From an uncultured Acidobacteriia bacterium (lineage in GTDB: Bacteria > Acidobacteriota > Terriglobia > Bryobacterales > Bryobacteraceae), in the NCBI GenBank assembly GCA_903825445.1, contig CAIKAS010000341.1:1-64000 (forward strand): a DNA stretch of 64,000 bases, in the 5' to 3' direction. The position numbers and the translations under genes were made by a program. This document shows positions 43,998 through 64,000 of the stretch, in pieces; positions within the stretch are counted from its first letter, which is position 1; each line of letters begins with the position of its first letter. Below the pieces are notes generated by a model that saw nothing but the letters and a program-made list of their open reading frames with translations, ran no database searches and was not told the DNA's origin.

Positions 43998-44094
43998 CCG
44001 GGATCAACAACCAGGGGACTGTTGGATACCGGGATTGTTTGTGTCCTTGCGTTCTTTGGTCAGGATGCGGCAGCGCCGGCTTGTGGGGGTGACA

Positions 44095-44415: not shown

Positions 44416-44428
44416 AGTTTAGCTCCAG

Positions 44429-45328: not shown

Positions 45329-45537
45329 TGGTTGTCCTTGTACTCTTCAAGCCAGGCCATTTGGATGGCTTCCAGCTTGCCTTCGCTGGATTTGGCCGGA
45401 TCATCGGAAAAAGCAGGGAGTTCGGTGATCCACTTGTGGAGATCCGTAAAGCGGATAGTAAGCGGATCAATTTCCGGATGCGCTTCGTATAACTCGAGTG
45501 CGATATTGTCGATTTGTTCCCAGCTTAGTCCGGCCAT
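45325..45537 (-). CDS. iscX: IscX (YfhJ) iron-sulfur assembly accessory protein
   Basis: 70 aa. SWEQIDNIALELYEAHPEIDPLTIRFTDLHKWITELPAFSDDPAKSSEGKLEAIQMAWLEEY is a near-complete IscX pattern (acidic, winged-helix-like protein that binds IscS and iron). The start ATG at 45537 gives the usual family length; a long frame above it is not coding. No other isc genes are nearby. Its stop overlaps the Tat-exported DUF1501 gene by 4 nt (ATGA), an unexpected partner. Confidence 0.92.
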   Translation of the reverse strand: MAGLSWEQIDNIALELYEAHPEIDPLTIRFTDLHKWITELPAFSDDPAKSSEGKLEAIQMAWLEEYKDNQ

Positions 45538-45591
45538 ATAGTTTTCAGTATCGCAAGCGGGAGGGAAGTTTCGACAAACGCCCAGTGAGGC

Positions 45592-45597
45592 GATAAT
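45592..45597 (+). promoter_or_regulatory. GATAAT -10 box directly before the ABC ATPase
   Basis: GATAAT ends 6 nt before the ATG at 45604, so transcription would start on or next to the start codon (leaderless). No Shine-Dalgarno is visible between. It is also in the divergent space with iscX (start 45537). Confidence 0.35.
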
Positions 45598-45603
45598 GGC
45601 GCT

Positions 45604-47593: not shown

Positions 47594-47607
47594 CGCTATC
47601 TCTGTCC

Positions 47608-48546: not shown

Positions 48547-48740
48547 TATCTTTCCTCCCTGAATACTAATAGTACTGTCAAGCAGCGAATTATCTCTGTT
48601 CTCTTTGGTTAATTAACAAAGATATTCATTCATTTTTACAGTCTGGCGTACCCGGCTATTCTCCCCTGAATGCCTGGGTATTGATATCTTAGAAGTGGTT
48701 GGCCTACGGCAGATTCGGGGCATGAATATTACCGGATTCT

Positions 48741-49640
48741 TCAGACCACATCCAGAGATATTACATTCTGATGCAGGTGTCCCCTGGCTATTTCCCGCAA
48801 CGCCTGGTCAGCGTCGCTAAACTGGCCCAGAAACCGAATTCCGTTATGGTCGTCTGATTGAGTCGCATCGTATGCCAACCATGTCTTGCCCACCCGGTAT
48901 GCATGACCGAGATGCCTCTCGCTTGTAGCTATGGCACACTTTGTGTCGGACGAATATGAAAAGGATTTAGCACTGTTGTAACGTACAGGCAGGCATTCTA
49001 CCCGAGACTCGCCTCTCTTCCGGGATTCTTGTCCAGTGGTCTCTGTGGGAGCGGAACCGGACGGACGGGCCGATACCGAGGATGCGAGAAGACGCATCTT
49101 TGCTCGGTTCTTGGCGAGACGAAATTGTGTTTCCGTTATTCCCAGATCAACCTGGATCTGGCGGGGCGTATCGCCCTCCAGATAGAAACGTCTGAGAATT
49201 TCGCGCCCCAGCGGGGAGAGGCGGCTCATCAGCGTCGAAATAATCTGACGTTGCTCGGAGAGCAATAAATCCGCCTCCTGGTCGGGTGCAGAATTAGGCA
49301 GCAAACTAACCTCGACATCGGCGTGCATTTCCCGCTCGGCGATCCGGAACTGAATGGCCTTGCGAAGAATATTCCGCGCGATTCCCCAAACGTAGGCGGT
49401 CATTTTCGACGGTTCCCGCAAGGAACCCTTATGTATTCCACTGAGAGCCGTAACCAGGCATTCGCTCGTGCAATCGGCTAAAGCGGCATGGTCCACTAGA
49501 CGTTGCGAGAAATACGCGCGAAGCGAACTGCTAAACAACCGATAAAACGTCTCGATTGCCGATTCGTCGTTGCGACGAATTCCGGCGACCAGACCGTCCC
49601 AATCGGTAAGTTCAGACGAATTGGTTGCGCAGTCTCTCAT
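48741..49640 (-). CDS. ECF-type RNA polymerase sigma factor with C-terminal extension
   Basis: 299 aa, ~100 longer than a usual ECF factor. Sigma-2 ~20-100 (ESAIETFYRLFSSSLRAYF; DCTSECLVTALSG; TAYVWGIARNILRKAI) and sigma-4 ~125-185 (ISTLMSRLSPLGREILRRFYLEGDTPRQIQVDLGITETQFRLAKNRAKMRL). After a Ser-rich linker comes a small added domain ~236-290 (IATSERHLGHAYRVGKTWLAYDATQSDDHNGIRFLGQF) of unknown fold. It is divergent from a zinc-finger anti-sigma-like gene at 49829, its likely regulator. Confidence 0.88.
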   Translation of the reverse strand: MRDCATNSSELTDWDGLVAGIRRNDESAIETFYRLFSSSLRAYFSQRLVDHAALADCTSECLVTALSGIHKGSLREPSKMTAYVWGIARNILRKAIQFRIAEREMHADVEVSLLPNSAPDQEADLLLSEQRQIISTLMSRLSPLGREILRRFYLEGDTPRQIQVDLGITETQFRLAKNRAKMRLLASSVSARPSGSAPTETTGQESRKRGESRVECLPVRYNSAKSFSYSSDTKCAIATSERHLGHAYRVGKTWLAYDATQSDDHNGIRFLGQFSDADQALREIARGHLHQNVISLDVV

Positions 49641-49655
49641 CGGCAGACAGTACTC

Positions 49656-49685
49656 ATAGTACCGGATTTATCCTAGGCAAGGCAA
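49656..49685 (-). promoter_or_regulatory. Sigma-70-like promoter before the ECF sigma gene
   Basis: On the minus strand: TTGCCT (plus 49680-49685), 18-nt spacer, TACTAT (plus 49656-49661). The start point would lie ~9 nt before the ATG at 49640. Housekeeping-like sequence rather than the GGAAC/GTC type of ECF autoregulation. Confidence 0.35.
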
Positions 49686-49754
49686 GGAAAATCTTATTTA
49701 AAATTCCTGGTGCCGAGGCGGGCCAGACGGGAATCTTATAGATCACGGCTTTGT

Positions 49755-49795
49755 CGCCGATATGACACGCAGAGGTGTCACGGAGTTTATCGGCG
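49755..49795 (+). promoter_or_regulatory. Long leader hairpin before the anti-sigma-like gene
   Basis: CGCCGATATGACAC (49755-49768) pairs with GTGTCA (49775-49780) and, past a 7-nt bulge CGGAGTT, with TATCGGCG (49788-49795). That is 14 bp in all, 6-nt loop, no mismatches. It ends 33 nt before the ATG of the zinc-finger gene. The inner TGACAC-6-GTGTCA is also a perfect operator-like palindrome. No T-run follows. Confidence 0.55.
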
Positions 49796-49828
49796 AGGCA
49801 TCTCAGGATCGGGATGCGGAGAAGTCTT

Positions 49829-50224
49829 ATGAAACACCTGTCCGATGACATCATTGAAGCCTACGCTCTATCGGCACCGTCTGAGGCAAACGGGAGGGAC
49901 GTGGAAGAACACTTCCGGGTCTGTGAAACCTGCCGCGCAAAGTTGACCCGAGCGGAGGAGGAAATTGAGTTGATCCGACTCGCGTGGACGGAACCGCAGG
50001 TCCACTATGCGGACGGAGCGGCTTCAATCCGTATCAGTGTCGAGGTACAGGGAGACCGCGCATCGGGAAAAATAGATGGCCCGGGACCCTGCCATCTATT
50101 CGAAGCAAAGACACCCGGAGCCGCTATGGCGGCTGCCGTCCGGGCATTTCGGCGAATGTACCCCAGCCACGTTTGCGATGAAAGATGTTCCAGGCGCGAG
50201 CCTGGCACGCCAGGCGGCAACTGA
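49829..50224 (+). CDS. Zinc-finger anti-sigma-factor-like protein (soluble)
   Basis: 131 aa. The N-terminal part carries HFRVCETC (His28, Cys32, Cys35), the HxxxCxxC zinc motif of ZAS-type anti-sigma domains. There is no membrane helix; the C-terminus (~60-120) is alpha/beta-like with FEAKTPGAAMAAAVRAF. It is divergent from the ECF sigma gene, 188 bp away, and probably binds that sigma factor. The ATG at 49829 is preferred (GGAG 7 nt upstream) over longer in-frame starts. A 14-bp hairpin lies in its leader. Confidence 0.75.
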   Translation: MKHLSDDIIEAYALSAPSEANGRDVEEHFRVCETCRAKLTRAEEEIELIRLAWTEPQVHYADGAASIRISVEVQGDRASGKIDGPGPCHLFEAKTPGAAMAAAVRAFRRMYPSHVCDERCSRREPGTPGGN

Positions 50225-50230
50225 GACTTG

Positions 50231-51580
50231 CTACTGCTTGATGATCTGGCCATCACTGCGGCGGAGTTCTCCCCAACCGCCGTTGAGTCCATTGGCCGGG
50301 TTGGTAAAGGGATATTTCGCAGCGGCCTTCTCATCGATCTCAATGCCCCAGCCGGGCTTGGTACTGGGCCAGAGGTAGCCATCTTCCATCACAGGGCAGC
50401 CGCTAAATACCTCCTGGGTGCGCGCATTGAACGGCGTGTATTCCTGGATGCCAAAGTTGTAGCTCACTACATCGAGCGTCACGTTGGCCATGTGCCCAAT
50501 GGGGGAAACGTCACCAGGGCCATGCCAGGCCGTCTTGACGCCGAATTGTTCCGCCAAAATCGCGATCTTGCGTGCGGGAGTGAAGCCGCCAACCTGAGAG
50601 ACGTGGCAGCGGATGTAGTCGATGAGGCGCTCGGAAATCAGCGGAGTCCACTCGTGCGGGCTATTGAAGAGTTCGCCCATCGAGATAGGCGTGGCGCATT
50701 GCTGGCGAATCTGGCGGAAGTAGGCGATATCTTCCGGTGACAGCGGATCTTCCATAAAAAAGAGGTGGTACTTCTCAAGATCCCTGGCAAAACGGACCGC
50801 CTCATTGGGCGTAACCCGTTCGTGCACGTCGTGGAGGAGACCGACCTCGTCGCCAAGCTGCTCGCGGGCGGCATCGAACATTTTGAGCACGCGCCGAATG
50901 TAGGGGAGTGGTTCGAAGACGGGTCCGGGCGCCAGACCCTTGACCGGGGGAACCACGCCTCCGCCACCTCCGGCGTAGCCCTGATAACCGGGGACACTCA
51001 CCTGCATACGGACGTTGCGGAAGCCCTGCGACATGTACCGCTTCGCGTTGTCGATGACCTGCTGGATCTCATTGCCATCGGCGTGGGTATAGACATCGGC
51101 CGCTTCGCGGCATTTGCCGCCGACCAAATCATAAACGGGCATGTTGGCCATTCGTCCCTTGATGTCCCAGAGTGCCTGGTCGACCCCGCTGATGGCGTTG
51201 TTAAGCACGGGGCCGTTTTTCCAATACGAACTGTCATAGCAGGTTTGCCAGATGTCTTCGATCTTGTCGACGGTGTGATCCTTGAGCAGTGGCTTCAGGT
51301 AGCGATCGACGGCGGGCTTGATGAGGTCGGCACGCTGGGTGAAGGTGGCGCAACCGTAGCCGTACAGGCCATCCTGATCGGTGGTGATTTTGACGACGTC
51401 CAGGCGGACGCCGGCGGGCGCGGTTTCGATGACGGTGATGTCTTTGATTTTGGGGCGAGGGAGGCCGCGGACGGCTCTGGCGACCTTTTCATCGGCCTGC
51501 TGAGCACGTTGTTCCCTGGGCGTGAAGAGACCGGTGAGGCCGGCGGCGGTTACGGTTTTCAGGAGGTTGCGGCGGTTCAT
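50231..51580 (-). CDS. Enolase-superfamily sugar acid dehydratase (ManD/RspA-like) with Tat-like leader
   Basis: 449 aa. Leader MNRRNLLKTVTAAGLTGLFTP resembles a Tat signal. The N-terminal capping domain and TIM-barrel are of the mannonate-dehydratase-like branch: PKIKDITVIETAPAGVRLDVVKI, AISGVDQALWDIKGRMANMPVYDLVGG, LLHDVHERVTPNEAVRFARDLEKY, FFMEDPLSPED (metal ligand Glu), GELFNSPHEWTPLI (metal ligand Glu) and HGPGDVSPIGH. Such enzymes dehydrate D-mannonate or D-gluconate. Export is unusual for this family. The start at 51580 is chosen because a longer upstream frame to 51766 runs beyond the leader. Convergent with the anti-sigma-like gene (6 nt). Confidence 0.88.
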   Translation of the reverse strand: MNRRNLLKTVTAAGLTGLFTPREQRAQQADEKVARAVRGLPRPKIKDITVIETAPAGVRLDVVKITTDQDGLYGYGCATFTQRADLIKPAVDRYLKPLLKDHTVDKIEDIWQTCYDSSYWKNGPVLNNAISGVDQALWDIKGRMANMPVYDLVGGKCREAADVYTHADGNEIQQVIDNAKRYMSQGFRNVRMQVSVPGYQGYAGGGGGVVPPVKGLAPGPVFEPLPYIRRVLKMFDAAREQLGDEVGLLHDVHERVTPNEAVRFARDLEKYHLFFMEDPLSPEDIAYFRQIRQQCATPISMGELFNSPHEWTPLISERLIDYIRCHVSQVGGFTPARKIAILAEQFGVKTAWHGPGDVSPIGHMANVTLDVVSYNFGIQEYTPFNARTQEVFSGCPVMEDGYLWPSTKPGWGIEIDEKAAAKYPFTNPANGLNGGWGELRRSDGQIIKQ

Positions 51581-51741
51581 GGTTGAGGTTGTCCCGTCGC
51601 TTATTCTATACCCGGTTAACTTGATGGTAAAAAGTGCCGAGATGACGGAGTGCGCTGGAGGTGTTGCTCGTGCCCGAGATGCGAGAGTTAGCGTCGGTTC
51701 ACGCCAGCGTAGGGTGGGACGGACCGTCAGTATTTCACGCA

Positions 51742-52572
51742 TCAGGCACGGAAGCCGACAGCGCACCAGTACGGGTCGTTGGGAGAGAATTCTATACGGG
51801 TCAGCCCCGCGTCCACCATCATCCGCTGAATTTGTGCCGCAGTGAAACGTTGTTCCAGTGGCGTACCAAACCTGTCAAGCGCGTCTGTTCTCATGGTGTA
51901 GAAACTCAGACACCGATATGCAGACAGAGGCATCCACCCGACTGTGCAGCCGCAGATCTCGGCCAGTCGAACCGCACGGGCAAGAGGAAAGTAGATGCAA
52001 CACGCTATCAAGGTGGTGGCAGGGTTAAGAATCCAGGCGGGTGATGAGGATAGCATGCGCCGACCTAAATCAGAAACTTTCCATAGAAACCGGAACCACC
52101 AAGGCCGATTGTCCAGCGCATAGTACAAATACAACAGTAACGGCGCACCGCGTTTCAGCTTTGCTACGCAGGAGGCGATACCCGCGCGAGTGTCCGGAAC
52201 ATGGTGAAGTACACCGAGCGAGTAGCCGAAATCCATTGATTCGTCACCCAGTGGAATGTCATCTACGGATGCATGATGAATGACGCAGTTCCCACAATTG
52301 GCTAGATTTCGCCGGGCGACGTTCAATGCATCATCGCTGGCGTCGATACAGTGCAGCCTGCCCACCCGGGGCGCTACGAGAAGAGCCCAACGACCACTAC
52401 CACACCCCAAATCAAAGCCTTCCGCGTCCGGTGGAATACTTGCCCACGGAAAGACACTAAAATATGCGTTCCATATGCGTTGGCGTTCGGCATCTGACAA
52501 GTCGGACTGGTCGAATCGCGACCACTCCCGACCGAAGCCTTCTATTGTCTTCCTGTCGGCATTTGAATTCAT
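51742..52572 (-). CDS. SAM-dependent methyltransferase (class I)
   Basis: 276 aa. FDLGCGSGRWALLVAP (motif I, SAM) at ~53-68, CIDASDDALNVARRNL (motif II), DDIPLGDESMDFGYSLGVLHHVPDT (post II/III), and a long hydrophobic stretch ~145-190 (PLLLYLYYALDNRPWWFRFLW; TTLIACCIYFPLARAV) suggesting membrane contact. It lies divergent from the polysaccharide cluster and probably belongs to it (sugar or lipid-carrier methylation, inference). Lower GC and weaker codon bias than flanking housekeeping genes by eye. Confidence 0.85.
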   Translation of the reverse strand: MNSNADRKTIEGFGREWSRFDQSDLSDAERQRIWNAYFSVFPWASIPPDAEGFDLGCGSGRWALLVAPRVGRLHCIDASDDALNVARRNLANCGNCVIHHASVDDIPLGDESMDFGYSLGVLHHVPDTRAGIASCVAKLKRGAPLLLYLYYALDNRPWWFRFLWKVSDLGRRMLSSSPAWILNPATTLIACCIYFPLARAVRLAEICGCTVGWMPLSAYRCLSFYTMRTDALDRFGTPLEQRFTAAQIQRMMVDAGLTRIEFSPNDPYWCAVGFRA

Positions 52573-52719
52573 CTAGTGATTGCCATCGTAACAGGCAGCT
52601 TACATCGAGGACTCAATGGCGCTATGACGTTTTCATCGTAGTTTCCATTCGCTCATCCTGCGGGCCATGGATACTAAGTGCGACTGGAATTTGCATGTTA
52701 GCATAAAATCAAGGAGAGT

Positions 52720-52747
52720 TTGGTCTACGACTGACAGCTGTTATAGA
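52720..52747 (+). promoter_or_regulatory. Promoter of the polysaccharide cluster
   Basis: TTGGTC (52720-52725), 16-nt spacer, TATAGA (52742-52747). The predicted start ~52754 leaves a ~100-nt leader before the NusG-like gene. Placed between the divergent methyltransferase gene and the cluster. The leader holds no GGCGGTAGCGT (ops) element. Confidence 0.4.
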
Positions 52748-52856
52748 GCAGTGCTTACAGTTGTAGGAAAGCTTTGCCCGAGGCTATGACGGAGGGCGAT
52801 GTGTTCGCGTCGCAGTTGAGTATTTGCCTACACAATTCAAGGTAGAGAATCCCTCG

Positions 52857-53471
52857 ATGTCGTTGGATATGGCGGCAGCCTGCCCAAATAGTGGGGCTAT
52901 CATAATGCCTCAAGACGTATCCGCGAATAAAACGAGCCTGTTCTGGTTTGCGCTACAGGTGCGTGGGCGTCACGAAAAAGCGGTTTCAGAACTCCTCCGG
53001 CGTAAGGGTTTCGACGAGTTCCTGCCGTTCTACCTGGCGCGACGCCAATGGTCCAGACGCGTCGCCAACATTGAACTACCGCTCTTCCCCGGGTACGTCT
53101 TTTGCCGCTTCGACCCAAAGGAACGGCGTGTTCCGATTATGACCACGCCAGGAGTCATGGGAATCGTCGGTTTCGGTGGAAAGCCAACACCCGTCGATAG
53201 TAATGAGATCGAAGACATACACAGAGTTCTGGCAACTGGGATAGCTACCGAGCCGTGGCAATGGATTCCCTCCGGTCAGAGCGTCCGGGTTGAACACGGA
53301 CCCCTGACGGGAATAGAGGGTATCTTCATCAAGGCAAAAAAAAATCACCGGCTCCTGCTGTCTGTGACGCTCTTGCAACGTTCGGTCGCAATTCAAATCG
53401 ACTCATCGTGTGTAGTTCCCCTCGGCGAGTCTCGCGGGGTTAGCGCCAGACTGCCCGCTTTCACAGTCTAA
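52857..53471 (+). CDS. NusG/UpxY/RfaH-type transcription antiterminator
   Basis: About 204 aa. The NGN domain starts at LFWFALQVRGRHEKAVSELLRRKGFDEFLPFYLARRQWSRR and continues LPLFPGYVFCRFDPKERR, TPGVMGIVGFGGKPTPV, ending in a KOW domain (GQSVRVEHGPLTGIEGIFIKAKKNHRLLLSVTLLQRSVAIQID). It is the usual first gene of capsule/EPS operons, where it binds RNA polymerase and lets it read through a long operon. Start uncertain: ATG 52857 has GGTAGAG upstream; ATG 52905 would start 12 residues before the NGN domain; TTG 52824 is also possible. Confidence 0.9.
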   Translation: MSLDMAAACPNSGAIIMPQDVSANKTSLFWFALQVRGRHEKAVSELLRRKGFDEFLPFYLARRQWSRRVANIELPLFPGYVFCRFDPKERRVPIMTTPGVMGIVGFGGKPTPVDSNEIEDIHRVLATGIATEPWQWIPSGQSVRVEHGPLTGIEGIFIKAKKNHRLLLSVTLLQRSVAIQIDSSCVVPLGESRGVSARLPAFTV

Positions 53472-53612
53472 TGAGCCAGACCATACCAAACATTGACGCG
53501 GAACGACCATCGGTTTACCGTCGGGGATGCTCATCAAAAGAGCGAGATTTAGTGTATTATCCGGGCGTTTCCGGGAGAGGTCGCTTGACGTAATGTCGAT
53601 TGAACAAGCTAA

Positions 53613-54389
53613 ATGAAAGTCGTCATCCTCTGTGGAGGCCAGGGCACGCGCCTTCGGGAAGAAACCGAGTATCGTCCGAAACCACTCGTGGAGGTCGGCG
53701 GAAAACCCATACTGTGGCACATCATGAAGACCTATGCCCACTACGGATTTCGTGAGTTCGTGCTCTGCCTCGGCTATCGCGGCAACATGATCAAGGATTA
53801 CTTTCTGAACTACGAGGCCATGAATAACGACTTCACCATCAGCCTCGGTAAGGAATCCAGGATCTCTTTCAACGGCCTTCACCAGGAGCAGGACTTCCAG
53901 GTAACGCTGGCTGACACCGGACAGGAAACAATGACCGGCGGGCGGATCGGACGGATCGAGCAGTACGTGGACGGTGACACCTTTATGGTTACATACGGCG
54001 ATGGTCTTGCCGACATCAATGTCGCTGACCTGCTGGCCTTCCATAAGAACCACGGCAAACTGGCTACCGTAACTACCGTACGGCCAATCTCGCGCTTTGG
54101 CATCTTGGACACGACAGACAATGGGAAGGTACTGGCGTTCAACGAGAAACCCCAACTGGATGGTTGGGCAAGTGCCGGATATCTTGTCTTCGACCACAAG
54201 CTGTTCTCCTACCTTGATGGCGACGACTGTATTCTGGAACGCGCACCGTTGGAACGCCTCGCCGCAGAAGGTCAGCTGATGGCCTATCGTCACGAGGGCT
54301 TTTTCTTTGCAATGGATACGTACCGGGAGTACGTCTTTCTGAATGAACTCTGGCAGTCTGGCAACGCTCCCTGGAAGGCATGGGCGTAG
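53613..54389 (+). CDS. rfbF: Glucose-1-phosphate cytidylyltransferase
   Basis: 258 aa nucleotidyltransferase. [37 protein letters not shown] is the CTP-binding signature; YGDGLADIN has the metal-binding Asp; [16 protein letters not shown] and [17 protein letters not shown] are typical of RfbF/DdhA. Makes CDP-glucose from glucose 1-phosphate, step 1 of the CDP-3,6-dideoxyhexose path. Overlaps rfbG by 10 nt. TATTAT at 53555 may be an internal promoter. Confidence 0.95.
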
Positions 54390-55363
54390 TGGAAAGATTC
54401 TGGCAGGACAGACCCGTTCTCGTCACCGGCGCCACCGGGTTGGTGGGTGGCTGGCTCATCAAATGCCTTCTGACAGCAGGCGCGGACGTGGTGTGCCTGG
54501 TTCGGGACTGGGTACCGGAGTCTGAACTAGTCCGATCCCGGGATATTGAGCGCGTCAAAACGGTGCGCGGAGATGTGCGGGACCGCGACTGCCTGGAGAG
54601 AGCGATCGGCGAATATGAAATCGACACAGTCTTCCATCTGGCGGCGCAGACGATTGTCGGGATCGCAAATCGCAATCCCATCTCGACTTTTGAAAGCAAT
54701 ATCGCGGGAACGTGGAACATTATGGAGGCTTGCCGCCGCTCGCCTTCAGTGAAGTCGATCATCGTCGCCTCTTCAGACAAGGCTTATGGAGATCAATTAG
54801 CGCTGCCTTACTCGGAGGAAACGCCACTGCAGGGACAGCACCCTTACGATGTCAGCAAGTCCTGCGCCGATCTGATCGCACACACATACGCAGTCAGTTA
54901 CAATTTACCGGTCGCCATAACGCGATGCGGCAATTTCTATGGCGGAGGCGACCTGAACTGGAACCGAATAGTTCCTGGAACTATTCGGTCGGCAGTTCGC
55001 GGCGAACGCCCAGTAATCCGTTCGGATGGCCAGTTTGTACGGGACTATTTTTATGTAGAAGACGGCGCGGCAGCATACATGATGCTCGCGGAAGCGCTCG
55101 CAAAGCGGCCCGAACTACGAGGCGAAGCGTTCAATTTCTCCTATGAGCTGCAAATCACGGTTCTCGATCTGGTGCGTCAGATCCTGGCTCAACTGGGTAG
55201 CGACCTGAATGCGGACATTCGCAATCACGCTGGTAACGAGATTCGGCATCAGTACCTGAATGCGGCGAAGGCTCGCCAGGTCCTCGCCTGGGAGCCTCTC
55301 TTTAGCCTCAGCGACGGTCTCAGCAGAACTGTGGCATGGTACCGGGAGTTTCTGAAAGCATGA
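54380..55363 (+). CDS. rfbG: CDP-glucose 4,6-dehydratase
   Basis: 327 aa extended SDR. NAD motif [10 protein letters not shown] at ~17-26, [17 protein letters not shown] and YDVSKSCAD (Tyr-xxx-Lys), [21 protein letters not shown]. The AAQTIVG and SSDKAYG segments are characteristic of RfbG/DdhB. It forms CDP-4-keto-6-deoxyglucose. Tightly overlapped by rfbF (10 nt) and rfbH (4 nt). Confidence 0.93.
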
Positions 55364-56688
55364 GCGAAAAATCCGAAGAGTTGAGGGCACAGATCCGCGA
55401 ACTGGTGGCCGAATTCCATGCCGAAGCGTTCGCCGCACAGCCGTTCGTGCCTGGCGAGAGTTCTGTTCCGGTAAGCGGGCGGGTCTTTGACGCTACGGAA
55501 ATCCAGTATCTCGTCGATTCGTCGTTGGATTTTTGGCTCACTACCGGACGTTTTGCAGCACAGTTCGAACGTGAATTCGCGCGCTTCATGGGAATTCGCT
55601 GCGCCATTCTTGTGAACTCCGGATCGTCGGCGAATCTTCTGGCCGTGTCGTGTCTGACTTCACGCACATTGGGCGACCGCAGACTGACGCCTGGCGATGA
55701 GGTCATCACGGTTGCCGCAGGATTTCCCACTACGGTGAATCCGATTATTCAGAATGGGCTGGTGCCGGTTTTTATCGACATTACGGCTCCCACCTATAAC
55801 GCGGACGTGACACAACTAGATGCCGCGTTATCGCCCAAGACCCGCGCGATAATTCTGGCGCATACGCTGGGAAACCCGTTCGATCTACACGCAGTAGTCG
55901 CTTTTGCGAGGAAACATAACCTCTGGCTGATTGAAGACTGCTGCGACGCTGTTGGATCTGAATACAAAGGCCGGAAGGCCGGAACCTTCGGCGATCTGGC
56001 GACCGCCAGTTTTTACCCTGCGCACCACATTACGATGGGCGAGGGGGGCTGCGTGATGACGAACTCGCCGCAGCTTAAAACAGTGGTGGAATCGTTCCGG
56101 GACTGGGGGCGCGATTGCTGGTGCGAACCAGGCAAAGACAACACATGTGGCAAGCGATTCAAGTGGCAATTAGGCCAGTTGCCATGTGGATACGATCACA
56201 AATATACCTATTCGCACATCGGCTACAACCTGAAGGTGACCGACATGCAGGCGGCCGTGGGCGTGGCCCAGTTGCAGAAGCTACCGCGCTACATCGAAGC
56301 CAGACGCGAAAACTTCCGACGCCTTCGCGAAGAGCTGCGAAGCGTGGAGGAGTTTTTTCTCCTGCCCGAAGCAACATCCGGCGCGGACCCCAGCTGGTTT
56401 GGTTTTCCCATCGCCGTTCGCGAGAACGCGCCGTTTAGTCGCGCGGAGGTCATCGCTCACCTTGAGGAGCGAAAGATCGCCACGCGCTTGCTTTTTGCAG
56501 GTAATCTGATCCGACAACCGGCGTATGCGGAAATTCCCTACCGCGCGGTTGGGAGTCTTCCGAACACGGATTTTGTGATGAATCAACTGTTTTGGATTGG
56601 GATTTATCCAGGCATTTCTCCGGCGATGATCAGGCACATGAAGGAAAGCTTCGAGGGAATCTGCAAAAACTCATGTCAAGTCTCCTAA
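55360..56688 (+). CDS. rfbH: CDP-4-keto-6-deoxyglucose 3-dehydrase (E1)
   Basis: 442 aa PLP/PMP enzyme of the aminotransferase fold that, with an iron-sulfur reductase, removes the C3 hydroxyl. The hallmark is present: the usual PLP lysine is replaced by histidine (His222 in [14 protein letters not shown]), so it stays PMP-bound. The [2Fe-2S] ligands fit the E1 spacing C-x57-C-x1-C-x7-C: Cys195, Cys253, Cys255, Cys263, each offset by exactly 2 from the recalled Yersinia E1 positions. Overlaps rfbG by 4 nt (ATGA) and the next gene by 16 nt. No E3 reductase gene is seen in the window. Confidence 0.95.
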
Positions 56689-57728
56689 AGGAGGATCTCG
56701 GTCACATCCTTGACCACACTCGTGACTTCTGGGAGGAACTGCGTGGCCAAAGGATCTTCATCACGGGCGGCACTGGATTTTTCGGTTGCTGGCTGTTGGA
56801 GAGTTTTGATTGGATCAACCGGGAACTGAAATTGGGTGCTTCGGCGGTGGTGCTGGCACGAAACCCGACAGCGCTAAGAAGTAAGGCGCCGCATCTCGCG
56901 GAATCACCCGCGATCGAGATCCTGGAAGGTGATCTGCAGACGTTCGAAGTACCACAGAGTGATTTCACACACGTTTTGCATGCGGCTTCTGCCGGAAGCG
57001 CAGATCCTTCTCAAAACCCTCTTGAGATCTTTCGGACCACGGTTTGGGGTACTTCGCACATTCTGGACGCAACCTCAAAATGGCACACAAAGAAGATGCT
57101 CTTCACTAGTTCGGGCGCGGTTTACGGGCGGCAGCCGCGAGACTTGGCAGGATTCCCTGAGGGATATCCCGGAGCGCCAGACTCCTCCCTCGTATCGTCG
57201 GCCTATGCCGAGTCCAAGAGGGCGGCCGAAACACTTTGTGCAATTGCTGATGGTGTAGGGGGCCTGGAGGTGAAGATCGCCCGGTGTTTCGCCTTCGTCG
57301 GTCCCTATTTACCGCTTAGCGGCCGCTTTGCTATCGGGAATTTCATTCGCGATGAAATGGGGGGATCTCCGATCGGAGTGCATGGCGACGGAACGGACGT
57401 TCGCTCATATCTCTACGCGTCCGACCTGGCAATCTGGCTGTGGACTATTTTGTTTAGAGGCAGGGCCTGCGAGGCGTACAACGTGGGTTCAGAACGGGCC
57501 ATATCGATTGCAGAAACGGCCGCAACGGTCGCCGCGGCAGGATGGCACGGAGCGACTGTCGCCATTAAGAGCCCTCAGGCCGCCGGAGCTGACGGCAGCA
57601 GATATATCCCCTGCACCCGGAAGGCCCGTACCGAACTCGGACTGAGAGAGTATGTTGACTTAAAAAATGCGATCCGCAAGACGCTGGTTTGGCACACGCG
57701 CGCCGCTACTGAACGAGGGCGAAATTGA
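56673..57728 (+). CDS. NAD-dependent epimerase/reductase (extended SDR) of the dideoxysugar path
   Basis: 351 aa. [10 protein letters not shown] dinucleotide motif ~31-40, [29 protein letters not shown] (Tyr-xxx-Lys), [12 protein letters not shown]. By position it would be the 4-keto reductase or epimerase acting after rfbFGH (as RfbJ/RfbS/AscF-type enzymes do) or on a branched product. ATG within the rfbH end (16-nt overlap). Its stop is overlapped by the TTG start of the first transketolase subunit (TTGA). Exact product stereochemistry cannot be told. Confidence 0.87.
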
Positions 57729-58543
57729 CAACGAACTACTCGGCCGCGGAACTCGCCGTGCGAATTCGTCGTCATGCCCTGCGAATGACCCACAAGTCGA
57801 AGGCGTCGCATATTGGTAGCTGCCTGTCGATAGCTGACATTCTTGCTGCCCTGTACGGCGGAGTCCTCAAGGTGGCTCCAGACAATCCTGGCTGGCCGGA
57901 TCGTGACAAGTTGATCGTCAGTAAAGGCCATGCAGCAGTAGCCCTATACGGGGCGCTAGCAGAATCAGGCTTTTTTTCAATTGAATGGCTCGGTGAGTAC
58001 TGCCAGAATGGTTCTCCTCTGATCGGGCACGTGAGTCACCACGTACCAGGAGTGGAGGTTTCAACAGGATCATTGGGACACGGCCTACCCATCGGATGTG
58101 GCATGGCACTGGCGGCAAAGAGAAGCCGACTGCCCTCCCGAACGTTCGTAATTCTCAGCGATGGCGAACTCGATGAAGGCTCAAACTGGGAAGCCATTCT
58201 GTTCGCGGCCCATCATTGCCTGGATCGGCTCTGCGCAATTGTCGACTACAACAAGATCCAGAGTTTCGGGACAGTGCACGCTGTGATGAATCTTGAACCT
58301 TTGGCCGATAAGTGGCGCGCCTTCGGCTGGGGAGTGATGGAAATTGATGGTCACGACCTGCCAGCCATAGAAGAAGCGTTTCGCCACGTGCCACTCGAAA
58401 CCGACAAGCCGACCGTGGTTATCGCCAACACCTTGAAAGGTAAGGGCGTCAGCTTTATGGAAGACCGGCTTGAGTGGCATTATAAATCCCCAAACGACGA
58501 TCAACTGGCACAGGCATTGAGAGAACTGGAGACTGCCGGTTGA
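57725..58543 (+). CDS. Transketolase, N-terminal (TPP-binding) subunit
   Basis: 272 aa, matching the N-terminal third of transketolase. MTHKSKASHIGSCLSIADILAALYGGVLKV, SKGHAAVALYGALAESGFF, STGSLGHGLPIGCGMALAAK, and the TPP motif LSDGELDEGSNWEAILFA (variant of GDGE...N), VDYNKIQSFG. Start TTG at 57725 overlaps the preceding stop (TTGA), with GAGGG upstream. It forms a split enzyme with the next gene. In this operon it is expected to add a two-carbon unit to a sugar rather than serve the pentose pathway (inference). Confidence 0.9.
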   Translation: MTTNYSAAELAVRIRRHALRMTHKSKASHIGSCLSIADILAALYGGVLKVAPDNPGWPDRDKLIVSKGHAAVALYGALAESGFFSIEWLGEYCQNGSPLIGHVSHHVPGVEVSTGSLGHGLPIGCGMALAAKRSRLPSRTFVILSDGELDEGSNWEAILFAAHHCLDRLCAIVDYNKIQSFGTVHAVMNLEPLADKWRAFGWGVMEIDGHDLPAIEEAFRHVPLETDKPTVVIANTLKGKGVSFMEDRLEWHYKSPNDDQLAQALRELETAG

Positions 58544-59451
58544 GAGGCGCATTTATCCGTGCGCTGGCTGAAGCAGCAGCAGGGCACCCGGAATTGTGGC
58601 TCTTGTGCGGTGACCTCGGCTTTTCCGTCCTGGAAGGGTTTGCAGGGCAATACCCAGACCGGTACGTGAATATGGGGGTTGCCGAGCAGAATATGACGGG
58701 TGTGGCAGCCGGACTCGCGCTGAGCGGGAAGACGGTATTCACATACTCCATTGCGAATTTTCCGACGATTCGATGTCTGGAACAGATACGAAACGACGTC
58801 TGCTATCACAATCTGAGTGTGAAAATTGTTGCGGTTGGAGGCGGCTTTTCCTATGGAAGTGCAGGCTATACTCACCACGGACTGGAGGATATGGCAGTCA
58901 TGCGGGTGATGCCGAACATGACAATCTTCGCCCCAGGCGATCCCGTCGAGGCTGCGTGGGCCACTGAAGCGTGCGCCGCGTTGCCCGGGCCGTGCTACTT
59001 ACGCCTGGGTAAGGGTGGCGAAGCCATAGTTCACACAGACAAACCAGCCTTGGAGATCGGGAGGGCATTTTTGATGAGAGAAGGTTCCAACGTGACGATT
59101 GCAACGTCGGCTGGAACTTTGGCCATGGCAATGGGTGCGGCGGAGTCGCTCGCCAACGAGGGGATTTCTGCGGAGGTGCTGAGCTTTCCAACACTGCAAC
59201 CTTTTGATTTCGGATCGCTAGCCTCGTCGTTGGCCAAAACCGGCCGGCTTATAACGCTTGAAGAGCACGGCAAGGGCGGGTTTGCCACGATTGTCGCGGA
59301 GTATCTGGCGGTCTCCGGGACGCGAACGGAGTTTCGACCGTTGTTTCTAGGGCGCAAGCCGGAGACCACGGCGGGTGGAAGGGATGTGCTATGCGCGAAG
59401 GCTGGACTAGCCGTGGAGAATGTCGTAGAGGTTGCACGTGAGTTGTTGTGA
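58540..59451 (+). CDS. Transketolase, C-terminal subunit
   Basis: 303 aa: pyrimidine-binding domain with catalytic Glu in NMGVAEQNMTGVAAGLA (~44-60), then GGGFSYGSAGYTHHGLEDMAVMRVMPNM and PCYLRLGKGGE, and the C-terminal transketolase domain (NVTIATSAGTLAMAMGAAE; LEEHGKGGFATIVAEYL). It completes the split transketolase begun at 57725. Again a TTG start overlapping the previous stop (TTGA). Ends 69 nt before the beta-helix gene. Confidence 0.92.
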   Translation: MRGAFIRALAEAAAGHPELWLLCGDLGFSVLEGFAGQYPDRYVNMGVAEQNMTGVAAGLALSGKTVFTYSIANFPTIRCLEQIRNDVCYHNLSVKIVAVGGGFSYGSAGYTHHGLEDMAVMRVMPNMTIFAPGDPVEAAWATEACAALPGPCYLRLGKGGEAIVHTDKPALEIGRAFLMREGSNVTIATSAGTLAMAMGAAESLANEGISAEVLSFPTLQPFDFGSLASSLAKTGRLITLEEHGKGGFATIVAEYLAVSGTRTEFRPLFLGRKPETTAGGRDVLCAKAGLAVENVVEVARELL

Positions 59452-59519
59452 AATGTCGTAGTGCCGCCGGCATTCGAAGCGGATTTCGCACGTGGAATTC
59501 TTCTGAGGTGACGAAGCTT

Positions 59520-61412
59520 ATGAGTCGACTGAATGTTTTAATCAGCACCAGCGTTGCGGCTGTCGTCGCGGCGTGCCTTGCTCCAACAGCAATAATGGCT
59601 CAGACCGTAACGATCGAACCTCCGATCTTCATGGGAACCGGTCTGAACGATGCCGCGAGCGGAGGACGGTTTGCATCCCCGGACGGCAACGCCCAATACT
59701 CCGTGGTGATTTCGGCAACTGGCGCACCGGACAGCTTCAGGTGGTCGAAAAACCGTGGAGCCCTTAGCTCACCGGTGGCGATGACTGGATCGGCACAGCT
59801 ATTGGCTGATGGCGTTACTGTCACTTTTGGCGCAACAAGAGGACACACGCTTAACGATTCGTGGACCATTACCGCAACAGCGAATGGATCTGTGAGCTCT
59901 TATTCCTTTGTCCAAAAAGGAACCGGGGCTCTGGTTGCAAGGAATGCGCAGGATAAACTTCGGGAATTAGTAAGTGTAGAAGATTTTGGCGGAAAGGGCG
60001 ATTACAACTTCACTTCTAAGACAGGAACCGATAACTGTCCTGCTTACCGGAAGTTGGGTTCAATTGGCGGCGTAATTTATTTCCCCACTGGCGCGTACTA
60101 TTCTTCCTGCACATTTGTAACGGCGATCCCAACCCAGTTCATTGGCACTGGAGGGGGCGTGAACACATGTGCTGCGGCACGAACGTGTCTTGTGTTCGCG
60201 GCCGGGGTGCCAGGCATCACAACGTCCTTAGGCTCGCGGGATTCATCTGTCAGAGATATGTGGATTGACTCCCTCGACACTGAAGCGAACTCCGACCATG
60301 GGGTAGAGATCGGCGACTCCAGGTTTTCCGCGTACCAGATTACGATCAGCGGCTTCGGAGGGGACGGGCTGTATTGTTCCGCGTTGGATCCATGCGACAA
60401 GCAATACATCGTTAACTCTTATTTCCTGAAAAACCGCGGAGCCGGATGGCACTGTGGAAGCACGCCGGATTGTAATGCTGGAACGCTGATCAACGACAGC
60501 GCGCAGAAGAACAAAATCGGTTTTTATGAGGAATCGGGCGGTCCGAATACATTCATCAGTAACGATACATCCGACAACACGGAATCGGACTTCGACATCA
60601 ATGGCACGAGCGAGATTTTTCTCAATCCGTACTGTGAGGGCAGTGGCTCGTTTATATTGCGTGCGGCATTCTCGTACATAGACTCGCCCCTTGCCGGCGG
60701 ATGTAAAATCACCAATCCCGGCGGCCCATCAAACACAATTAAACTGAACCATCAATACTTCGATCCGATTGGAATTGGCCCGATCACTGGCGCAAGTGAA
60801 ATGCCGGCTCTCCCGACGTATTACTCGCTCCATTCCGGAAGTATTGGGCGAGGTCAGCTCGACCTTCATGACGACACGAATAATCGACCCATCTACCATT
60901 ACAATCCTGCTTCGACGCCGCCCATGTTCACTTTCGACCAGGCTGTAACCTTCAGTAAACCTGTAACTTTCGATATTTTCCAAGGCTCGCCGCCTGATCA
61001 AGTATTGTTTCGCACGACGGCGGGGAGCGGCCTTATACTTTTCAGAAACGACAATCACGGGTCGGGCACTGTCAATATTCTTACTCGCATGGACGGAACC
61101 GACTCGACATCGAGCGAAGCCTCCTACGCGGCGATTTACTCGGCCATTCAGGATAACTCCCATGGGGCACAAAAGGGCTCGCTTCACTTACAGACTGCGC
61201 AGGCGGGCAAACTTATCGACTCCCTGGTAATGAATGCTGACGGCACAGTATCAGTGCCCGGCGCCACTATGACTGTCGGAGGATCCCCGGTGGTTACTGG
61301 AAGTGGCTTCACAGGCATGAAAATCAGAACTGAATGTACGACGCTAACTGGCGGGGTTCCCAGCGGTTGTTCAAACATTACGGAACACTATGTGAACGGT
61401 CTGCTTCAGTGA
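59520..61412 (+). CDS. Exported parallel beta-helix (pectate-lyase-3/tailspike-like) protein
   Basis: 630 aa with signal peptide (VLISTSVAAVVAACLAPTAIMAQ). An N-terminal Ig-like or jelly-roll region (~30-135: PDSFRWSKNRGALSSPVAM, LADGVTVTFGATRGH) is followed at ~150 by VEDFGGKGDYNF...CPAYRKLGSIGGVIYFPTGAYY, the classic entry of pectate-lyase-3/tailspike beta-helices. Cys pairs are frequent (~170-340). The C-terminus is Gly/Ser/Thr-rich with trimer-like repeats (AVTFSKPVTFD; TMTVGGSPVVTGSG). ATG at 59520 with AGGTG. Within the EPS cluster it may modify or cut the polymer (inference). Confidence 0.8.
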   Translation: MSRLNVLISTSVAAVVAACLAPTAIMAQTVTIEPPIFMGTGLNDAASGGRFASPDGNAQYSVVISATGAPDSFRWSKNRGALSSPVAMTGSAQLLADGVTVTFGATRGHTLNDSWTITATANGSVSSYSFVQKGTGALVARNAQDKLRELVSVEDFGGKGDYNFTSKTGTDNCPAYRKLGSIGGVIYFPTGAYYSSCTFVTAIPTQFIGTGGGVNTCAAARTCLVFAAGVPGITTSLGSRDSSVRDMWIDSLDTEANSDHGVEIGDSRFSAYQITISGFGGDGLYCSALDPCDKQYIVNSYFLKNRGAGWHCGSTPDCNAGTLINDSAQKNKIGFYEESGGPNTFISNDTSDNTESDFDINGTSEIFLNPYCEGSGSFILRAAFSYIDSPLAGGCKITNPGGPSNTIKLNHQYFDPIGIGPITGASEMPALPTYYSLHSGSIGRGQLDLHDDTNNRPIYHYNPASTPPMFTFDQAVTFSKPVTFDIFQGSPPDQVLFRTTAGSGLILFRNDNHGSGTVNILTRMDGTDSTSSEASYAAIYSAIQDNSHGAQKGSLHLQTAQAGKLIDSLVMNADGTVSVPGATMTVGGSPVVTGSGFTGMKIRTECTTLTGGVPSGCSNITEHYVNGLLQ

Positions 61413-61515
61413 TACAACGTCGAAAGGCATTCTTCACATTGCTGAAGATCGCAGGAACACGCGTGTCGCGTTCTTTTAGAGTCTCGCAACTCGAACGGGC
61501 GTCAACGTTCTCGTA

Positions 61516-62919
61516 ATGAACATGGCCTCTCGAATAAAGCGTTTCGCGACATGGGTGGGAGCAGATGATGCTGTCATCAGTGCGCTCGCATGGCGCGCGG
61601 CAGTGGCGGTTTGCGGTCTTGTTACGCTGAGGGCCATCGCCAAAGGTTTGACGCCGGTCGAACAGGGCTTCTATTTCACGTTCAGCAGTCTGCTAGGGAT
61701 GCGAGTCTTCCTCGACCTCAGTTTTTCATACGTAATTTCAATTATGGCTAGTCACGAGGCAGGGGGGATCACGTGGCAGGGGCGCGATTTCATCGTCAGG
61801 AGCCAAGCCAGCATTGAACGACTTGGCACGCTCCTGCGAATCGTAAGCAGGTGGTACTTGATTGGCGCAGCCATTCTGTTTACGCTTGCTGTTGGAATCG
61901 GGCTAAAATTCTTCGCGCATTCCGGTGCCATCTCACTTTGGCGAGGGCCCTGGCTTCTGGCTTGCTTCGCAGCTGCAGCGCTATTCACAAGTACGCCGTA
62001 CTATTCGGTTCTCGAGGGTTGCGGCCAGGTCGCATTGGTAGCGCGCTTCCGTGCGGGAGAAGTCGTAATCAGCAATATCCTTTTCTGGATCGCGCTGCGT
62101 TTGGGCCTCGGACTGTACGCTGCGGCCGTTCCCTCTCTTGTTCAGGCCCTTTACGAATGGCTTTTATTCTCAACCAAATGGCGGCGATTCCTCATTTCGG
62201 TCTATCGCGCAGGTCACAACGAATCCGCCCGGGGGATGCTTCGTGAAGTGTGGCCGTTTCAATGGAAGATCGCTGTCAGCGCCATGAGTGGATACTTCAT
62301 GAGCACGATGCTTGTTCCGCTGGTTTTCGCCCGACTGGGCGCGATACAGGCAGGGGAAGTAGGAATGTCGCTGGCTTTTTTAGGCGCGGCCACGACTATG
62401 TCCTTCACATGGATCAATACGAAGGCGCCGCGATTCGGAACGTTGATCTCGCGCCGCCGTTTTGCCGAATTGGACGAAGTCTTTCGCGGAAGCCTCCGGC
62501 AGGCACTTGCAATCATGAGTCTTGGCGTTATGATCTTGGTAATTGGAGTAACGGTCATTTACGGCAGAGGAAGCGCCTTGGCGGTGCGCGTCGTGGACCC
62601 ATTATCTTTTACGTTGTTGGGCGGATGGGCGATCATGAATCTGCTGGTATCATGTCAAGCGATCTATCTTCGTGCCCACAAGCGAGAGCCATTCCTGATC
62701 CTCTCAGTACTAAGCGGATTATCGCTAAGCGGGGCCAGCGCTGCCGTCGTTGGACGTCTTGGAGTGCGGGGGGTTGCCCTTGCATATTTCTTTGTTGAAA
62801 TCGGTCTCGCGGGCTATGCGACCGTGGAGTTTCTGAGAAGGCGGCGCGAGTGGCATCATGATCCGCTACCGGGAAGTAACGACTGCGAGCCAGAACCAGC
62901 TCTCGAGATCTGCGAATGA
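61516..62919 (+). CDS. Wzx-like oligosaccharide flippase
   Basis: 467 aa with about 12-14 membrane helices (AVAVCGLVTLRAIAKGL; VFLDLSFSYVISIMASH; LIGAAILFTLAVGIG; and others) and basic loops, ending in a charged cytoplasmic tail. The MOP-like pattern ...GLTPVEQGFYFTFSSLLGMRVFLDLS is usual for polysaccharide flippases. It moves lipid-linked repeat units across the inner membrane. Overlaps the GT2 gene by 4 nt (ATGA). 103 nt separate it from the beta-helix gene. Confidence 0.83.
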   Translation: MNMASRIKRFATWVGADDAVISALAWRAAVAVCGLVTLRAIAKGLTPVEQGFYFTFSSLLGMRVFLDLSFSYVISIMASHEAGGITWQGRDFIVRSQASIERLGTLLRIVSRWYLIGAAILFTLAVGIGLKFFAHSGAISLWRGPWLLACFAAAALFTSTPYYSVLEGCGQVALVARFRAGEVVISNILFWIALRLGLGLYAAAVPSLVQALYEWLLFSTKWRRFLISVYRAGHNESARGMLREVWPFQWKIAVSAMSGYFMSTMLVPLVFARLGAIQAGEVGMSLAFLGAATTMSFTWINTKAPRFGTLISRRRFAELDEVFRGSLRQALAIMSLGVMILVIGVTVIYGRGSALAVRVVDPLSFTLLGGWAIMNLLVSCQAIYLRAHKREPFLILSVLSGLSLSGASAAVVGRLGVRGVALAYFFVEIGLAGYATVEFLRRRREWHHDPLPGSNDCEPEPALEICE

Positions 62920-63899
62920 ATCCCAAGTATTCCATTTGTATCCCGAACTATAATTCGGGACGTTTCATTGCGGCGACTATCGAAAGCGCAATAGCCCAAT
63001 CCGTACCTGAAGGTTCATGTGAAATTGTTGTCTCCGATAATGCATCCTCGGATAATTCGTTGAACGTTATTGGCATGTATGGCAAACGCGTTCGACTGGT
63101 AAGGCGAGATGTCACTATTCCGGTCATCGAGCACTGGAATGCCTGCGTTAGGGAGGCCAGCGGCGATTACGTTATTCTCCTGCATTCGGACGACCTGATC
63201 GACCGGGATTTCCTCCGGATCTGTGGTGAAGCACTGGATTCTCATCCAAACATTCAGATGGTGTCTTGTCTCAACCGCTTAATCGACGCGTCCGGATCCG
63301 TGCTGAAAAGACAACGGCGGCGCGCGACTGCGGGGGAATTGCCGATCGATGTGATGCTTGTGAGGAATCAGGTGTCCCCTCCCTCCCTGCTCGTGCGTAG
63401 GACTTTCTACGCAGCCGATGGATACTACAACCCCGAAATAATGTATTGTGCGGACTATGACCTTGCTGTTCGCGGTGCGGCGCAGGGTGGGCTGTTATTC
63501 ATCGAGCAGTGCCTGTGCAGCTATCGAAGACACTCAGCTAATCTGGGGCGACAAGATGCGGCCAGCCTGTTCGATATACGACACACTGCCATCGCCGCGC
63601 GACTGTGGACCAAACGGTTAGGCCTGAATTACAGGCAGTCGCGTAAACTGCAAGGACGAATGGCGTGGGGAGCTCTTCTTGCAACCATTTGTGTCCTCGA
63701 ATCAGGCGGGAGGCAGAAAGCACGGCAACGTCTCGGGGCAATTCGGGACGAATTCCGGATTGGGGGGCTGGCAACCGCGGCGTTTGTCAGCCTTTGGCTG
63801 TTGAGTTGCGTGCCAGGAGCGTGGCGGTTGCTTTGGGCCACGACTACGGTCTACAGACATCTGACTTACAAGCAATCCATGCGTCCGGCAGTTGGTTGA
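62916..63899 (+). CDS. Glycosyltransferase family 2
   Basis: 327 aa GT-A enzyme. YSICIPNYNSGRFIAATIESAIAQS at the N-terminus, EIVVSDNASSDNS (UDP-sugar binding), LHSDDLIDRDF with the DxD-like acid cluster (SDD), and a final base region CADYDLAVRGAA. The C-terminal ~60 residues have a hydrophobic segment (LATAAFVSLWLLSCVPGAWRLLWA), perhaps membrane contact. It extends a lipid-linked oligosaccharide in the cluster; donor and linkage unknown. ATGA overlap with the flippase. Confidence 0.92.
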   Translation: MNPKYSICIPNYNSGRFIAATIESAIAQSVPEGSCEIVVSDNASSDNSLNVIGMYGKRVRLVRRDVTIPVIEHWNACVREASGDYVILLHSDDLIDRDFLRICGEALDSHPNIQMVSCLNRLIDASGSVLKRQRRRATAGELPIDVMLVRNQVSPPSLLVRRTFYAADGYYNPEIMYCADYDLAVRGAAQGGLLFIEQCLCSYRRHSANLGRQDAASLFDIRHTAIAARLWTKRLGLNYRQSRKLQGRMAWGALLATICVLESGGRQKARQRLGAIRDEFRIGGLATAAFVSLWLLSCVPGAWRLLWATTTVYRHLTYKQSMRPAVG

Positions 63900-63916
63900 A
63901 TCGAAGAGAATATGCT

Positions 63917-64000
63917 ATGAGTATGAGGCTAACTGCGGCACCTTCGCTAACCCTGAGGCTGACCCGTCCCAACGGCTGTTGTTTCCGTGAATCTGAGAGG
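63917..64000 (+). CDS. Possible start of a next gene (runs off window)
   Basis: An ATG at 63917 opens a frame to the window end (28 codons so far). The composition is not typical of a known family start and the Shine-Dalgarno is weak (AGAGAA). It lies 17 nt after the GT2 stop, where another cluster gene would be expected. Confidence 0.25.
   Translation, partial: MSMRLTAAPSLTLRLTRPNGCCFRESER

Follow-up and report, generated by a model that had tools for sequence, protein, structure and literature searches.

A split transketolase in a CDP-dideoxyhexose operon of an uncultured Acidobacteriia bacterium: a candidate route to a C4-branched surface sugar

Why would a bacterium place both halves of a transketolase (TK) at the end of an operon for CDP-activated dideoxyhexoses? 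The question is raised by positions 53613-59451 of a stretch of 64,000 nucleotides from an uncultured Acidobacteriia bacterium (contig CAIKAS010000341.1; the full stretch is hereafter called the window). In this segment, rfbF, rfbG, rfbH, a gene for a short-chain dehydrogenase/reductase (SDR) and the genes for both subunits of a thiamine diphosphate (ThDP)-dependent TK follow one another. A first-pass annotation had proposed that they form a pathway to a sugar carrying a two-carbon branch. We give a probability of about 0.6 to the reading that the operon produces a CDP-activated dideoxy-octose, branched at C4 and destined for a surface polysaccharide, in which the split TK would add a ketol at C4 and the SDR would reduce the product. 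This reading is built on comparisons of sequences and gene neighborhoods, in which loci are designated by L numbers, the labels of this analysis. The six genes are the following:

53613..54389, plus strand: rfbF, glucose-1-phosphate cytidylyltransferase (CDP-glucose); TIGR02623, 327.8 bits, above the cut-off of 300
54380..55363, plus strand: rfbG, CDP-glucose 4,6-dehydratase (CDP-4-keto-6-deoxyglucose); best NCBIfam model TIGR02622; solved relatives 1rkx and 1wvg
55360..56688, plus strand: rfbH, C3 dehydrase (E1 type); NF011936, 741 bits against a cut-off of 423; 3bcx, 604 bits
56673..57728, plus strand: extended SDR, proposed branch-ketone reductase with a putative YerF-like role; Pfam Epimerase; subfamily recurrent at RfbH loci
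57725..58543, plus strand: TK N half (TK-N), ThDP-binding, TTG start; PF00456; 6yak, 284 bits
58540..59451, plus strand: TK C half (TK-C), pyrimidine-binding and C-terminal domains, TTG start; PF02779 and PF02780; 6yaj, 184 bits

All six open reading frames (ORFs) are open on the plus strand and each overlaps the next. The gene set described by the first-pass annotation is confirmed, as ORFs, family models and solved relatives agree. RfbG scores 220 bits with TIGR02622, under the curated cut-off of 278, which calls for caution on its identity; with this reservation, RfbF, RfbG and RfbH are all present in the operon, as a yersiniose-type pathway requires. RfbH reads [10 protein letters not shown] where the aminotransferases of related loci carry lysine, a position that we take to be the site of the pyridoxal phosphate lysine. 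The matches of the SDR are confined to generic epimerase/dehydratase models. TK-N and TK-C each have a chain of the Carboxydothermus split TK (6yak/6yaj) as nearest solved relative, and TK-N, with 150.9 bits for PF00456 versus 27.3 bits for E1_dh, is no E1_dh alpha subunit. Two features add to the earlier description: the pair belongs to a large family, and no gene for an E3 reductase was found in the locus.

Is the pair an active TK, and of which kind? Residues were read from alignments of 107 TK pairs and references. In a FastTree tree, 93 rows including the window's pair grouped together with an SH support of 100, with weak branching order inside the clade. This clade is separate from the Carboxydothermus enzyme, from two other canonical-like groups and from a sister group of eight rows that includes Listeria and Paenibacillus. 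The catalytic residues compared in the N half (window numbering) are largely invariant: His29, His69, Asp146 and Asn176 are found in 93 of 93 clade rows, His119 in 91 and His252 in 92. The Glu of the C half is kept in 92 rows, the last one showing a gap. The window's pair thus carries the ThDP/Mg motif and the catalytic His and Glu, with Ser as the first residue of the GDG motif. The resulting SDG occurs in 79 of the 93 clade rows; all 15 rows of the alignment that fall outside the clade lack it.

The substrate pocket is changed. The human residues compared here line the phosphate and C2-hydroxyl pocket, their numbering being taken from the alignment. The position of human H416 is Gly in all 93 clade rows, that of D424 is never Asp (Glu in two rows), and that of R474 is Lys in 65 rows; human R318 is retained throughout (93/93). 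At R318, S345, H416, D424 and R474 the window reads R, S, G, A and K, with Gly100, Ala108 and Lys158 of the C half replacing the canonical His, Asp and Arg, so that it does not have the canonical pentose-phosphate pocket. The change at human Q428 was dropped as a pocket marker, since canonical split enzymes likewise have His there. Homology to the Carboxydothermus enzyme could still mean that the pair is a housekeeping split TK serving the pentose phosphate pathway, placed next to sugar genes by chance. This is very improbable: the genome has a 722-codon TK-like frame on contig C172 with matches to the N half and the pyrimidine-binding domain, two genomes of the same genus gave no TK-C match at E 1e-25, and the gene string recurs widely.

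This recurrence, for which the first-pass annotation had suggested a search in other genomes, is widespread and hence not due to chance. It was followed from the TK side in the best 80 TK loci of a collection scan, a set ranked by similarity to the window and therefore not a random sample. ORF calling weighted by homology (calling by length only picked antisense frames) was still imperfect in GC-rich loci, and neighbors within 9 kb were therefore counted by tblastn; many contigs are cut. RfbF or RfbH was present in 30 of the 80 loci (18 of these 30 with RfbH), a DegT aminotransferase only in 28, and neither DegT nor CDP-sugar genes in 22. On the tree, the 35 rows lying beside CDP-sugar genes require 12 label changes, where shuffled labels average 29.7. 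They carry 13 phylum names, or 14 counting a Paenibacillus plasmid, and one of them comes from an archaeal metagenome bin; as many of the rows are metagenome assemblies, single phylum names may be wrong.

The arrangement of the string varies around a common core. Plasmid pHY1 of Methylovirgula carries rfbF-rfbG-SDR-rfbH-TK-N-TK-C, and L040 reads rfbF-rfbG-SDR-TK-TK with no RfbH. On a plasmid of Paenibacillus cellulosilyticus, SDR and TK-N are fused in one protein (L177:7097-9001, Epimerase and Transketolase_N domains), whose gene adjoins rfbF, rfbG and a C-methyltransferase gene. Both L177 and L074 have this C-methyltransferase between rfbG and the TK pair, and no RfbH nearby. Since L040, L177 and L074 do without RfbH, the constant product upstream of the pair would be CDP-4-keto-6-deoxyhexose, whatever the fate of C3. 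A search of plasmids for RfbH returned 33 records; among the eight neighborhoods read, two had annotated TK pairs (Methylovirgula and Desulfobaculum) and six had none. The window's SDR used as query against the same RfbH plasmids gave no match at E 1e-40. The Desulfobaculum pair (L184:8322-10120, rfbH followed by the TK pair) has a short N half, falls outside the clade and was not counted as support.

If the pair acts on the sugar nucleotide, what stands in its place at other RfbH loci? RfbH scored over the cut-off in 33 of 396 genomes from the window's phylum, a number that includes the window's own genome. The sample consisted of all 34 over-cut-off RfbH loci besides the window's, with up to about 8 kb per side; these loci are related, 13 of the 34 coming from one family. 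Two ThDP domain families were then sought in the 33 genomes. TPP_enzyme_N (the YerE class) lay within 10 kb of RfbH in 17 of 34 loci, Transket_pyr in three and both in none; the 14 loci with neither include several on short contigs. Given 79 TPP_enzyme_N matches over the 33 genomes, we estimate that chance would place fewer than one of them in 34 stretches of 20 kb. The excess of Transket_pyr alone is modest, and for this family the weight is carried by adjacency and by the TK-side census. Five of the 17 YerE-class matches were checked and are full TPP_enzyme_N/M/C proteins. The three Transket_pyr loci are of two kinds: L144 and L156 hold split TKs of the window's clade, and L162 (3190-6298) holds a dehydrogenase-type E1 alpha/beta pair directly beside an SDR of the window's subfamily, with rfbF, rfbG and rfbH. 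L161 repeats the order of the window, rfbF-rfbG-rfbH-SDR, with YerE replacing the TK pair. Near the window itself, no YerE-like single-chain decarboxylase-class ThDP enzyme was present, the four TPP_enzyme_N matches of the genome being on other contigs.

The analogy with YerE drawn in the first-pass annotation holds. Its proposal of branching is favored by this independent comparison of RfbH loci, in which one SDR subfamily accompanies YerE-class, E1-like and TK enzymes and two kinds of ThDP enzyme never share a sampled locus within 10 kb. Two-carbon transfer to C4, the donor and reduction by the SDR stay conditional; overall, the earlier interpretation is partly supported. As a separate observation, L162 places a ThDP class known from antibiotic branched sugars in a polysaccharide-looking locus.

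Does the SDR belong to the branching step? Homologs of the window's SDR, with 38 to 54% identity, occur in 14 of the 17 YerE-class loci, in the E1-like locus and in L165, whose contig is cut just past the SDR. They also occur in the TK loci L004, L006, L008, L040, L058 and L059, and most share the signature SSGAVYG...Y...K. Taking at least 38% identity as the limit of the subfamily, it is present in 15 of 20 ThDP-positive and in 1 of 10 ThDP-negative loci (Fisher p 0.0014, an optimistic value given that the loci are related). The table, filled by hand, takes ThDP-positive loci of any length and ThDP-negative loci of at least 9.8 kb, which leaves out the short ThDP-negative loci L139, L169, L170 and L171. 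Because the SDR accompanies ThDP enzymes and is mostly missing from plain rfbFGH loci, the pattern argues for a step tied to branching.

A different order of steps has to be weighed here, in which the SDR would first reduce or epimerise C4 and the TK would target a different carbonyl of the sugar nucleotide, or the free sugar, so that any branch would not be at C4. The generic family of the SDR leaves room for it, as do the other SDR types beside the TK in some loci, including those with the SSSEVYG motif described below. CDP-4-keto-6-deoxyhexose is, however, the product expected in common from loci that carry RfbH, loci that carry a C-methyltransferase (L177, L074) and L040, which carries neither, and as this shared product makes the 4-ketone the likeliest constant acceptor, we regard a branch elsewhere as improbable.

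How would the six enzymes act together in a C4-branching pathway? RfbF and RfbG convert their substrates to CDP-4-keto-6-deoxyglucose, and RfbH strips the 3-hydroxyl to give CDP-4-keto-3,6-dideoxyglucose, which is established chemistry for these families. The latter compound would be supplied as the acceptor. The split TK, filling the place of YerE, would take up a hydroxyacetyl group (a two-carbon ketol) on ThDP, with hydroxypyruvate or a ketose phosphate as donor, and join it to the C4 ketone, which would yield a tertiary alcohol. Reduction of the branch ketone by the SDR would then give a 4-C-(1,2-dihydroxyethyl)-3,6-dideoxyhexose. In this scheme we infer the substrate, the branch position, the donor, the order of the steps and the stereochemistry.

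Another explanation is that the TK pair works on unactivated sugar phosphates and turns them into an unusual ketose or aldose phosphate, a precursor for a different residue of the same polymer; rfbFGH and the SDR would then make an ordinary 3,6-dideoxyhexose. Phosphorylated sugars are the normal substrates of TKs, and the pair retains Arg2 and Ser29 of the phosphate site. A related split TK pair is found in a Listeria operon (L178:6142-7915) together with genes for an isomerase, a glycerol kinase and the phosphotransferase system (PTS), and this pair shares part of the altered pocket motif. We nevertheless consider a separate precursor unlikely, as the six-gene operon has no kinase, isomerase or extra nucleotidyltransferase, pocket His and Asp are lost in 93 of 93 clade rows, the SDR subfamily tracks ThDP enzymes and is missing from nine of ten RfbH loci without one, and YerE-class and E1-like enzymes are found in the same setting.

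Several observations nonetheless weigh against C4 branching by the TK and SDR. The eight-row sister group has also lost the pocket Asp, with Ser or Ala in place of the His, and it includes the catabolic-looking Listeria operon. The altered motif is therefore not confined to sugar-nucleotide loci, which weakens it as proof of ketone specificity. Fifty of the best 80 TK loci lack CDP-sugar genes within 9 kb, which also suits a separate precursor, and split TKs are rare beside RfbH (2 of 34 loci). The SDR slot is not constant either: L144 and L156, the RfbH-side split TK loci, hold another SDR type, and the nearest SDR in L032, L034, L051 and L066 has a motif of the SSSEVYG type, known from UDP-glucuronate decarboxylases. 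The SDR could act elsewhere. Finally, the E3 reductase that would pass electrons to RfbH was not found among the ten proteins scanned at 52824-63899, an E3-like profile search of window positions 44000-64000 gave no match, and two E3 queries against the window's own genome gave only weak matches of the ferredoxin reductase (FNR) type. With the same profile, a small FNR-like (E3-like) gene was found in 6 of 114 loci searched (L004, L057, L080, L162, L163 and L165), and a ferredoxin-type query of 329 amino acids, run against the ORFs of the loci of two sets, gave no match at E 1e-8. In Sphingomonas hengshuiensis, the gene of an FAD-binding oxidoreductase, a candidate E3-type enzyme, adjoins rfbFGH.

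What is the product for? Three further genes flank the operon:

52824..53471, plus strand: NusG-like antiterminator (UpxY/RfaH type), upstream; NF033644, 106.5 bits, above the cut-off of 100
61516..62919, plus strand: O-unit flippase-like membrane protein, downstream; NF041503, 55 bits, below the cut-off of 300
62916..63899, plus strand: family 2 glycosyltransferase, downstream; PF00535

With an antiterminator, a flippase-like protein and a glycosyltransferase nearby, we read this as a polysaccharide locus. The contig runs to 68884, and its final 4.9 kb open with a long hydrophobic ORF. G+C content is 0.53-0.56 across the last 12 kb of the window versus mostly 0.56-0.61 elsewhere; this shift, together with the missing TK-C match in the two congeneric genomes, would fit a variable locus gained by lateral transfer. 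Promoter-like and terminator-like sites were no more frequent in scans of the sequence than after shuffling.

Other members of the family stand in other surroundings. The DegT-type loci (among them L011, L013, L017, L021, L022, L050 and L055) have lysine at the motif wherever it was read, and sugar transferases, methyltransferases and Polysacc_synt_2 dehydratases recur in them (one member scanned per cluster). The pocket Ser is replaced by Gly in 22 of 31 DegT-type rows. These loci perhaps make amino-branched sugars. In L010, L030 and L032, a gene for an FkbM-type methyltransferase directly precedes the TK (Pfam was run on the L030 member only), which suggests a methylated branch or sugar. The genome of the window also has, on another contig, a second, distant non-canonical split TK pair (L189:7000-12601), with an ORF judged by eye to be SDR-looking (11678-12601) a few genes downstream.

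Taken further, the family as a whole may act on nucleotide-activated 4-keto sugars, a proposal to which we would give even odds. Across many phyla, a large, undescribed group of split TKs would then fill the place of YerE-class and E1-like enzymes in polysaccharide loci, the three being interchangeable ThDP modules, and would make two-carbon ketol-branched sugars that are reduced in SDR loci or perhaps aminated in DegT loci. If so, they would be the first TKs shown to accept ketones in the making of surface glycans. Enzymes that form C-C bonds at ketones are in demand, and many natural ketone-branching TKs would exist beyond streptomycetes. Carriers would include records not marked as metagenomes (Methylovirgula, Rugamonas, Janthinobacterium, Geobacter and Mucilaginibacter; among the strains are Methylovirgula sp. 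HY1, Rugamonas sp. A1-17 and Janthinobacterium sp. CG3), and a class of branched surface sugars is predicted that could be sought at once.

How new would such a pathway be? The first-pass annotation knew of no described pathway with this exact gene set. A search by title and abstract of the open literature, from which subscription papers are largely missing, found no paper tying rfbFGH to a TK as one pathway; at this level, two papers on Salmonella and one on a viral metagenome contain terms for both. The chemistry itself has a precedent, at least as an idea. A 2025 review distinguishes three ThDP classes for branched sugars, namely YerE-like enzymes, the alpha-keto-acid dehydrogenase type and TKs, and presents branching of a keto sugar by TK as a proposal, made for miharamycin, amipurimycin and 13 split genes of streptomycetes, none of them tested in vitro according to that text (PMC12247030). 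What would be new here is a different enzyme class at the key step of ThDP branching of CDP-4-keto sugars, a function that we infer.

The closest known pathway is that of yersiniose A (ddhA-D, YerE and YerF) in O-antigens of Yersinia and Pseudomonas, where a ThDP enzyme also adds two carbons at C4 of CDP-4-keto-3,6-dideoxyglucose (PMC12247030, PMC4509608, PMC4753412). In these sources, yerE and yerF of a Pseudomonas are named together with ddhA-D (PMC4509608), and the ketoreduction was still uncharacterised in 2016 (PMC4753412). The likeness may extend to the SDR, the window's subfamily standing beside YerE-class genes in 14 of 17 loci. YerE, however, is a single-chain, decarboxylase-class flavoprotein that uses pyruvate, whereas the window has a split TK, from which a hydroxyacetyl branch would be expected in place of an acetyl one. 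Its locus also yielded no E3 gene.

The TKs of miharamycin and amipurimycin and the 13 streptomycete split TKs of Krug et al. share the proposed hydroxyacetyl transfer to a keto sugar (PMC12247030). Compared by description only, they belong to secondary metabolites of streptomycetes, in contrast to the polysaccharide-type locus with CDP-sugar genes of the window. AviB1/B2, Pau11/12 and the enzymes of aldgamycin and kibdelomycin, of the alpha-keto-acid dehydrogenase type, are likewise two-gene ThDP enzymes that branch keto sugars (PMC12247030, PMC4753412), and an E1-like pair occupies the slot in L162. They differ in using pyruvate donors and in being of the E1_dh type, where the N half of the window is Transketolase_N.

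In azinomycin biosynthesis, the TK AziC5/C6 extends an amino acid semialdehyde, adding two carbons to a non-phosphorylated acceptor before an aminotransferase acts (PMC9570651); the acceptor there is an aldehyde on an amino acid. A plasmid of Streptomyces sp. CL7 (L188:5714-8867) carries an aminotransferase, a split TK, LysW/ArgB/ArgC homologs and nonribosomal peptide synthetase genes, and by analogy appears to resemble the azinomycin/vazabitide route. L188 and its nearest relative L187 differ from the window's pair in lying outside the 93-row clade and in keeping the pocket His. The split TK of Carboxydothermus hydrogenoformans (6yaj/6yak) is the closest solved structure to both halves by sequence, and differs in its canonical pocket His, Asp and Arg and in its GDG ThDP motif, where the window has SDG.

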